Positions 53,304 to 56,012 of a stretch of DNA of 61,525 nt are shown piece by piece (position 1 is the first letter of the stretch; each line of letters begins with the position of its first letter). The translations under genes were made by a program, and so were the position numbers. The notes under the pieces were generated by a model. That model did not search any database. It was not told where the DNA came from and saw nothing but the letters and a program-made list of their open reading frames with translations. Source of the stretch: Oscillospiraceae bacterium (lineage in GTDB: Bacteria > Bacillota > Clostridia > Oscillospirales > Oscillospiraceae); NCBI GenBank assembly GCA_022794215.1, contig JAAWEH010000002.1, positions 1-61,525 on the forward strand, written 5' to 3'.

Positions 53304-56012
53304 ATGAATCTTTCCCGTGAATGGTTAAACGAATTTGTCCCTGTAACGGCCTCCGACAAGGAATTTGCCGAGGCCATGACCCTCTCCGGCTCCAAGGTGG
53401 AGACCTTCACCGACCTGGGGGCCGAGATCAAAAACGTGGTGGTGGGCCGCATCGAAAAGATGGAGCGCCACCCTGATTCCGACCATATGTGGATCTGTCA
53501 GCTGGATGTGGGCATGAATGATCTGGTGCAGATCGTCACCGGCGCCTGGAACATCCATGTGGGCGACCTGGTTCCTGTGGCCCTCCACAAATCCACTCTC
53601 CCCGGCGGCGTCAAGATCGAAAAGGGCAAGCTGCGTGGGGTGCCCTCCAACGGCATGCTCTGCTCCCTGAAGGAGCTGGGCCTGGACGAGCGGGACTTCC
53701 CCTACGCCCTCGTTACCGCCGCCGCTCTTTTGAACGACTATAAGCCCATCGACCCGGGCAAACCCTCCATCCCCGCCGACATTCAGCCCGGGCATAAGAT
53801 CTTCGGGCCGGTGGTGGCCGCGGAAGCAAAAGGGGTCGAGTCCGCCGAAAACGGCGCCTGGGCCTGCACGCTGGCCTATGCCGAAACGGACGGCCCCACC
53901 GCCGCAGTCGTCAAAACCCCCTGCCAAAACATCCACACCGGCGACATGGTAGCCTTTAACACCAAAACCGGCGTGATCTGCACCCTGGCCGACCTCCACG
54001 CCGAACAGAAGGAGTTCCCCCACTGTATCCCTGACGGCATCTTTGTTCTCCAGGAGGAGGATGTCAAACCCGGCGATGACATCAAGGAGGTCATCGGGGT
54101 CAACGACACCCTGGTGGAGTTTGAGATCACCCCCAACCGCCCCGACTGCCTCAGCGTCATTGGTCTGGCGAGGGAGGCCGCCGCCACCTTTGATAAACCC
54201 TGCTGCTTCCATGAGCCGGTGGTAAAGGGCGGTGCCGACGGCGTGCTCGCCGACCTGCTGGACGTGGAGACCCCCGCCGCCGACCTGGTGCCCCGGTATA
54301 CCGCCCGGATGGTGCGCAACGTGAAGATCGGCCCCTCCCCCAAGTGGATGCGCCGCCGCCTCCGGGCCATGGGGGTGCGTCCCATCAACAACATCGTGGA
54401 CATCACCAACTACGTGATGCTGGAATATGGCCAGCCCATGCACGCCTTTGACTACCGCTACGTGCAGGGCGGTAAGATCATTGTCCGTCGGGCCGAGGAG
54501 GGCGAGGAGCTGACCACCCTGGACGGCAATGTCCGCAAGCTCAACGCCAACCACCTGGTCATCGCCGACGAAACCCGCTCCGTGGGACTTGCCGGCATTA
54601 TGGGCGGCATGAACTCCGAGATCGTAAGCGACACCACCGACGTAGTCTTTGAATCCGCCTGTTTCGACGGCACCTGCATCCGCAAGGGGGCCCTGGCCCT
54701 GGGTATGCGAACCGAGGCCAGCGCCAAATTTGAGAAGGGCCTTGACCCCATGAATACCCTGCCCGCCGTAAACCGCGCCTGTGAGCTGGTTGAAATGCTG
54801 GAGGCCGGCCAGGTCATGGACGGCGTCATCGACATTCTGAACTATGTGCCCGAGCCCACCCTTTTGAAACTGGAGCCGGACAAGATCAACGCCCTGCTGG
54901 GCACCGATGTGGCTGAAAACGTGATGTACACTTACCTCCAACGGCTGGGCTTTGAGACCACCAGGGATCAGGGCGTCATCAAAGTTCCCTCCTGGCGGGG
55001 CGATGTAAAGCGGATGGCCGACCTTGCCGAAGAGGTGGCCCGTTTCCATGGCTACAACAATATTCCCGTCACCCTCATGCGGGGCCAGACCACCCAGGGC
55101 GGCTACTCCCCCTCTCAGCAGGTGGAGCGGACTCTGGGCGCCGCCTGCCGGGCCATGGGCTATGACGAGATCATCACCTACTCCTTCATCTCCCCCACCT
55201 ATTACGACAAGATCCGCTGGGATCCCAAAGATCCCCGGCGGGAATCCTTCAAGATCCTGAACCCCTTGGGAGAGGACACCTCCATTATGCGCACCACCGT
55301 GCTGCCCTCCATGCTGGAGATCCTGACCCGGAACTACAATTTCCGCAATAAGAATGCCCGCCTCTACGAAATCGGCCGCATTTATTTCCCCGGCGGGCCT
55401 GACGGCCTTGCCGTAGAGAACAAGCTGCTCTCCATGGGCGCCTACGGCGATGGAATGGACTTCTTCTCCCTCAAAGGCGCCGTTGAGGCCCTCCTGAAAG
55501 AGCTGAGGGTAGCGGACGTAACCTTCCGCGCCGTTTCCGACAATCCCTCCTATCACCCCGGCCGCTGTGCCCAGGTGCTCTCAGGCAATACTGTCTTGGG
55601 CGTTCTTGGACAGGTTCACCCCCTGGTGGCTCAGAATTACGGCGTAGACGCCGAGCTCTACTGCGCCGAACTGAGCTTCGAGGCCCTGATGGACGCCAAG
55701 GGTGCCGATCCCGAATACACCCCCCTGCCCAAGTTCCCCGCCGTCACCCGGGATATCGCCGTGGTCTGTGACGAAGCCGTCACCGTCGGCGCGCTGGAAG
55801 AGTGCATCCGCAAGGGCGCCAAGGGCCTTCTGAAGGAGGTCTCCCTCTTCGACATCTACCGGGGTAAGGGAGTCGACGCGGGCAAAAAGTCGGTGGCCTT
55901 CAACCTGGTGCTCCGCTCCGACGAGCGCAGTCTCACCGCCGAGGAAGCCGATGAGGACGTGAAGAGCATCCTTTCCGCTCTGGAATCCCAGTTGGGCGCC
56001 TCTCTGCGCTGA
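53304..56012 (+). CDS. pheT: Phenylalanyl-tRNA synthetase beta subunit with duplicated OB-type domain
   Basis: Editing and tRNA-binding subunit. Usual length is about 790-810; this one is 902. The core order is normal: EMAP-like OB fold (40-125), B3/4 editing region, B5 domain, ferredoxin-fold anticodon domain at the C-terminus (LPKFPAVTRDIAVV). Between LKELGL (122-127) and DGIFVL (244-249), where about 7 residues are expected, lie about 115. Within them WxCxL (186-190), NIHTGDMV (209-216), GVICTL (223-228) and EFP (237-239) repeat WICQL (63-67), NIHVGDLV (83-90), GMLCSL (117-122) and DFP (131-133). AAAGGAGG site; last gene of the T-box operon. Confidence 0.95.
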   Translation: MNLSREWLNEFVPVTASDKEFAEAMTLSGSKVETFTDLGAEIKNVVVGRIEKMERHPDSDHMWICQLDVGMNDLVQIVTGAWNIHVGDLVPVALHKSTLPGGVKIEKGKLRGVPSNGMLCSLKELGLDERDFPYALVTAAALLNDYKPIDPGKPSIPADIQPGHKIFGPVVAAEAKGVESAENGAWACTLAYAETDGPTAAVVKTPCQNIHTGDMVAFNTKTGVICTLADLHAEQKEFPHCIPDGIFVLQEEDVKPGDDIKEVIGVNDTLVEFEITPNRPDCLSVIGLAREAAATFDKPCCFHEPVVKGGADGVLADLLDVETPAADLVPRYTARMVRNVKIGPSPKWMRRRLRAMGVRPINNIVDITNYVMLEYGQPMHAFDYRYVQGGKIIVRRAEEGEELTTLDGNVRKLNANHLVIADETRSVGLAGIMGGMNSEIVSDTTDVVFESACFDGTCIRKGALALGMRTEASAKFEKGLDPMNTLPAVNRACELVEMLEAGQVMDGVIDILNYVPEPTLLKLEPDKINALLGTDVAENVMYTYLQRLGFETTRDQGVIKVPSWRGDVKRMADLAEEVARFHGYNNIPVTLMRGQTTQGGYSPSQQVERTLGAACRAMGYDEIITYSFISPTYYDKIRWDPKDPRRESFKILNPLGEDTSIMRTTVLPSMLEILTRNYNFRNKNARLYEIGRIYFPGGPDGLAVENKLLSMGAYGDGMDFFSLKGAVEALLKELRVADVTFRAVSDNPSYHPGRCAQVLSGNTVLGVLGQVHPLVAQNYGVDAELYCAELSFEALMDAKGADPEYTPLPKFPAVTRDIAVVCDEAVTVGALEECIRKGAKGLLKEVSLFDIYRGKGVDAGKKSVAFNLVLRSDERSLTAEEADEDVKSILSALESQLGASLR

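Follow-up and report, generated by a model that had tools for sequence, protein, structure and literature searches.

What does an additional segment of about 106 residues do in the beta subunit of phenylalanine–tRNA ligase? The question is raised by pheT at positions 53304–56012, on the forward strand, of a 61,525-nucleotide stretch of DNA from an Oscillospiraceae bacterium (contig JAAWEH010000002.1, assembly GCA_022794215.1); this whole stretch is termed the window. Of this universal enzyme, the B2 domain of bacterial PheT, an OB fold of the EMAP II-like kind, is one of the more poorly understood regions. The extra segment lies between B2 and the canonical segment that starts DGIFVL, and it arose by tandem duplication of the B2 OB domain of PheT itself. 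On balance, and by a modest measure, we favour the view that the second copy is a decayed structural partner that braces or repositions B2.

The original prediction, made from sequence without database searches, described an open reading frame of 902 residues at these coordinates, which is correct. The protein matches TIGR00472 (bacterial PheT) at 785.3 bits, above the curated cut-off of 402.65, and its Pfam set is complete: tRNA_bind (residues 45–128), B3/4 (B3_4, 329–498), B5 (522–584), CLM (587–792) and FDX-ACB (809–902). For comparison, 137 loci yielded 131 PheT sequences with a recognisable start, of which 129 are distinct; with L117, a repeat of the window, dropped and L119 added, these make up 106 insert-bearing and 23 insert-lacking rows. 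Since two pairs (L006/L111 and L010/L116) share genomes and other repeats between collections are possible, such counts refer to rows, not genomes. PheT was held to be usually about 800 residues long, with some 110 extra before DGIFVL here; the 23 insert-lacking rows read span 789–808 residues, in good agreement.

The canonical B2 domain, OB1, occupies residues 43–130 (53430–53693); its strands are seen in the predicted model, and it scores 56.5 bits against Pfam tRNA_bind (PF01588; residues 45–128, gathering cut-off 27). It is followed by a conserved linker (residues 136–166; 53709–53801), a degenerate second OB domain, OB2 (167–243; 53802–54032), and the canonical segment 3′ of the insert (244–300; 54033–54203), all on the forward strand. 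Pfam places no family in the insert of the window protein. After thinning at 85% identity, and with no usable segment from L076 or L090, 58 inserts were left; none of them matched tRNA_bind at E values up to 1, and OB2 falls below the gathering cut-off.

The duplication can be seen within the protein itself. Landmarks W63-x-C65-x-L67, N83-I-H-V-G-D88, G117-M-L-C120 and F132-P133 of OB1 return in the same order in OB2 as W186-x-C188-x-L190, N209-I-H-T-G-D214, G223-V-I-C226 and F238-P239, and the spacing from the last cysteine to phenylalanine is 12 in both. All four repeats noticed originally, and their spacing, therefore stand; the WxCxL element is weak because its W and first C are unconserved among relatives, which conserve N[IL]HxxD, CTL and EFPxC. 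The loop of roughly 20 residues said to be missing before GxxC is indeed absent from OB2, where the Asn-to-Cys stretch measures 17 residues against 37 in OB1, 20 fewer. The local score between the two window copies was reached by 4 of 2000 shuffles (p 0.002), and BLASTP aligns them over 31 columns, 11 of them identical, with an E value of 3e-4. In 91 of 104 insert-bearing PheT proteins the score was reached by no more than 10 of 200 shuffles, and in the other 13 by more. A chance repeat was rejected on the strength of these shuffle tests and of a controlled profile comparison, the more powerful of the two.

In that comparison, a profile of the insert core built from 104 insert sequences was aligned by hhalign with B2 of insert-lacking PheT, giving a score of 48.7, a probability of 95.6% and an E value of 4.6e-9 (for one comparison) over 69 columns, while ten slices of the remaining PheT scored −0.2 to 8.05 and the reversed insert 1.2 and 2.5. 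The insert could instead have been acquired from another protein with an OB domain, such as YtpR or MetRS, and it is in keeping with such an origin that the insert is no closer to its own copy 1 (score 36.1, probability 83.8%) than to B2 of insert-lacking PheT (48.7). Against this, the OB domain of 13 proteins of the genus, which we take to be MetRS-like from open reading frame length and a motif, scored 17.0 with the insert (probability 2%), and 34.0 with PheT B2. The YtpR model, in a comparison limited to the genus, had a match in 13 of 16 genomes, each time PheT alone. A MetRS or YtpR source was rejected on these results, and foreign acquisition is very improbable; because of the profile scores, the insert is placed closer to PheT B2 than to the other domains compared. 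The linker weakly matches the canonical stretch after B2 of insert-lacking rows (hhalign probability 64%, 15 columns); for the corresponding part of insert-bearing rows the probability is 6.8%. One genome of the genus (L165 in G010) has a third tRNA_bind match, in a 162-residue open frame, besides its MetRS-like protein and PheT.

OB2 is predicted to form a barrel that matches solved OB folds, and in profile and structure comparisons alike its top match is bacterial PheT B2, the EMAP II-like domain. Over 102–103 residues, about one OB domain, EMAPII and Arc1p can be aligned with the predicted model. Judged by this model, the second copy seems to retain the OB fold. The diverged tandem duplication of an EMAP/Trbp111-like fold that was originally proposed is thus supported by profile comparison, predicted fold and the poor MetRS-like match: the insert is predicted to be an OB fold, and profiles of relatives relate it to the region of residues 40–130, so that neither of the two refuting outcomes named at the outset was found.

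Has the second copy also retained the capacity to bind tRNA? According to a published account (PMC11286949), loops L12 and L45 hold every tRNA-interface residue of Trbp111, F78, S82 and M85 being in L45; the Arc1p counterparts are R274, S278 and M281, and loss of Trbp111 R75 nearly abolishes binding. The L45 hairpin of OB1 (residues 100–118; 53601–53657, forward strand) carries R111, S115 and M118 with the spacing of both triplets, and all three residues are present in every row, the 106 with the insert and the 23 that lack it (129 of 129). OB1 thereby keeps the L45 residues of a putative tRNA 3′-end site; the place of Trbp111 R75 is taken, by spacing, by Gly108 in OB1 and Val in Arc1p. OB2 has neither the L45 hairpin nor the HPxSD stretch of L12, and has no counterparts of S115 and M118; a 3′-end site of the Trbp/EMAPII-like type, an L45 hairpin with R/F, S and M contacts, is therefore absent. 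Its mean net charge is −3.4 (106 rows), compared with +0.05 for OB1 and −1.2 for B2 of insert-lacking rows.

These features bear on the proposal that the second copy offers tRNA-Phe a further binding site and so increases the affinity for it. Its ancestry would favour this, as it descends from a kind of domain that binds tRNA 3′ ends (PMC11286949), and so would its seemingly retained fold. With L12 and L45 gone, an acidic charge and a variable beta1–beta3 region, however, such a site is unlikely, and we give it little credence. The original prediction that the duplication could alter tRNA binding is unlikely to hold in this direct form; the second copy may have an indirect effect, acting through B2.

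Conservation along the insert is uneven. Mean entropy across 45 representatives is 2.3 bits in beta1–beta3 of OB2, a region that varies even inside one genus, 0.88 in its last part, 0.75 in the linker (residues 137–166) and 0.68 in OB1. The median ratio of non-synonymous to synonymous substitution rates (dN/dS), over up to 119 non-independent pairs, is 0.15 for OB1, 0.12 for the linker, 0.32 for beta1–beta3, 0.18 for the last part and 0.18 for residues 330–902. The segment is therefore under purifying selection, apparently weakest at what we take for its outer face (beta1–beta3). OB folds of this kind occur in eukaryotic synthetase complexes, and OB2 could likewise be where some other protein of these bacteria docks, in line with the recruitment of a partner that was suggested originally. 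Conservation of the linker and of the last part of OB2 would suit a dock, but a conserved dock would hardly have beta1–beta3 strands that vary within a single genus, and we regard this role as rather unlikely. Cysteines 207, 226 and 241 of OB2 are near-invariant (98, 101 and 106 of 106 rows). As Cys207 and Cys226 are dispensable in some rows, the three probably do not form a metal site.

The strongest tie between insert and host protein is a single residue of OB1. Residue 82 (53547–53549, forward strand), in the motif TGA[W/Q]N that follows the third strand, is Trp in 106 of 106 insert-bearing rows and Gln in 23 of 23 insert-lacking rows, while H85 (53556–53558, forward strand) is invariant only with the insert, being His in 106 of 106 and 6 of 23 rows, respectively. 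Among 792 PheT columns (96 + 23 rows), residue 82 is the sole column with zero overlap between the groups; the next has 0.16. None of 341 PheS columns separates them (lowest overlap 0.38; 93 insert-bearing and 21 insert-lacking rows), and a link of the insert with PheS was rejected for that reason. Residue 82 and the insert change together in seven of seven independent pairs (p 0.0156). Six other columns were tried and, among the results listed, none was concordant in all pairings; I84 came nearest, with a median p of 0.03. A DNA pattern for QI[V/C]TGAWN occurs in 124 of 400 genomes of the family, all among the 128 that bear the insert; three of the remaining four have GAWN after other letters and one ends at a contig end. 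The same pattern is found in 2 of 196 genomes of the class, both insert-bearing. Absence of W82 where there is no insert holds for this spelling, the pattern missing others, and for the 23 rows read. Joint transfer of Trp82 and the insert on a single recombining segment could also account for this, but other nearby columns track the insert less strictly. W82 itself is located outside L12 and L45. Because the binding loops are lost and because W82/Q82 ties the insert to its parent domain, we read the second copy as a structural partner, not a second tRNA hook.

Relatives of the insert are encoded by 347 stretches of the genome_contigs collection; titles among the best 80 include Oscillospiraceae bacterium, Oscillibacter, Flintibacter, Lawsonibacter, Pseudoflavonifractor and Dysosmobacter, and some say only Clostridia or bacterium. 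Cultured species with the insert include Oscillibacter valericigenes, Flintibacter muris and Pseudoflavonifractor phocaeensis. Within the genus, 7 of 16 genomes have the insert; of the other nine, six have an insert-free PheT, and three yielded no N-terminal part. In the family, 132 of 400 genomes gave a match, four of them weak (L120–L123) and insert-free when read, which leaves 128, spread over 37 of 106 sampled genera. In the order, 17 of 295 genomes matched: 15 belong to the family, G556, from a different family, clearly carries the insert, and G561 gave a weak match (L124) that proved insert-free when read. Matches in the class (2 of 291 genomes) and in the phylum (2 of 299) come from the same pair of family genomes. 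An artefact of sequencing or assembly was rejected, given the 347 stretches and 128 family genomes with the insert, and so was a viral source, as none of 12 pattern matches in viral_contigs is a relative. The insert from G556 (L119) accompanies GAWN and is 57% identical to the nearest compared; its presence outside the family may reflect transfer or an older origin. In another genome (L009 in G020) one in-frame TAG is reported inside PheT, an error or real, and the open piece read has 816 residues.

The trees are of a quick kind and carry a long-branch warning that flagged L119, L124 and L136 among others. On the tree of the remaining PheT (the 110 rows in which it is sufficiently long), the insert switches between present and absent 7 times or more if starred branches alone are counted and 11 times on the best tree, gain and loss not being distinguished; the tree of residues 1–130 is poorly resolved, with 11 starred of 120 branches. 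The window insert is closest to that of L031 (80%) and is 60% identical to that of L002, with which the window protein shares 89% identity over residues 330–902. The window pheT looks like a mosaic, of which N-terminal exchange between lineages would be the simplest reading. The second copy might be a neutral passenger, covering a patch of B2 that W82 has come to fit and so lost only together with the reverse change, a ratchet without benefit. The repeated changes of presence, the species of the same genus that manage without it and the fast evolution of beta1–beta3 would all accord with this. A passenger would not be expected to show median dN/dS well under 1 in every part, nor to occur in 37 of 106 sampled genera, and we find this account fairly improbable.

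A structural partner of B2 therefore remains our preferred reading, with middling confidence in the bracing role. The B2 domain was duplicated in tandem, and the conserved linker joins the copies where B2 meets the canonical segment. The second copy is predicted to have kept its fold but is without the two loops that grip a tRNA 3′ end, the first copy retaining the L45 residues of such a site. Computation shows the duplication, the predicted fold, the loop loss, the coupling to W82 and the purifying selection; the contact between the copies, the bracing and any effect on tRNA handling are inferred. We propose that W82 and H85 of the first copy are contacted by the linker and by the final part of the second, and that the second copy so braces or repositions B2, much as a truncated structural protomer completes the Arc1p/AIMP1 pseudo-dimer. 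A more tentative proposal is an OB pseudo-dimer with a switchable second half, in which two alleles (insert with Trp82, no insert with Gln82) are exchanged among species and genera and might tune B2's handling of the tRNA 3′ end or assembly of the enzyme.

Directly upstream of pheT lies an unremarkable pheS for the alpha subunit (52260–53285, forward strand; Pfam tRNA-synt_2d and Phe_tRNA-synt_N), flanked in turn by a YbjQ-family protein (51903–52244); an IreB-family protein follows pheT (56113–56373). An Rfam scan of 49000–58000 at gathering scores found no T-box or other RNA near pheST.

This PheT, in which B2 is doubled and the second copy has decayed, is a new form of a known enzyme, found in this gut bacterium and many relatives. 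Literature searches of titles and abstract starts gave no report of this insert among the matches listed, and a profile of the insert run against the PDB found no PheT chain. An essential synthetase can thus differ by a whole domain inside one genus, a domain unrecognised by the Pfam copy used here. A clade with the duplicated, decayed B2 and the Trp/Gln difference, together with close relatives that have neither, offers matched natural variants for probing B2.

Compared with known systems, the second copy shares with bacterial PheT B2 the strand order and the NxHxGD, CxL and FP landmarks, but it lacks L12 and L45 and goes unrecognised by Pfam tRNA_bind; bacterial PheT chains listed by a PDB sequence search have 785–845 residues, against 902 here. 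YtpR/TapR are free-standing relatives of the PheT N-terminus with a related OB fold, separate proteins unlike the fused second copy. Trbp111 has the same kind of OB fold, two of them side by side in a homodimer; both its protomers hold tRNA in the crystal, with one tRNA per dimer in solution, whereas in PheT such residues are found in the first copy only (PMC11286949). In Arc1p/AIMP1, according to the same source, an OB fold is joined into a pseudo-dimer interface by a truncated structural protomer. As in the PheT described here, a functional OB fold is paired with a part of the same chain that has no tRNA site of its own; in Arc1p/AIMP1 the partner lies outside the barrel and imitates the dimer interface of Trbp, whereas the PheT partner is a second barrel. 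By analogy, the Arc1p/AIMP1 pseudo-dimer would be the nearest working likeness to the tandem B2.
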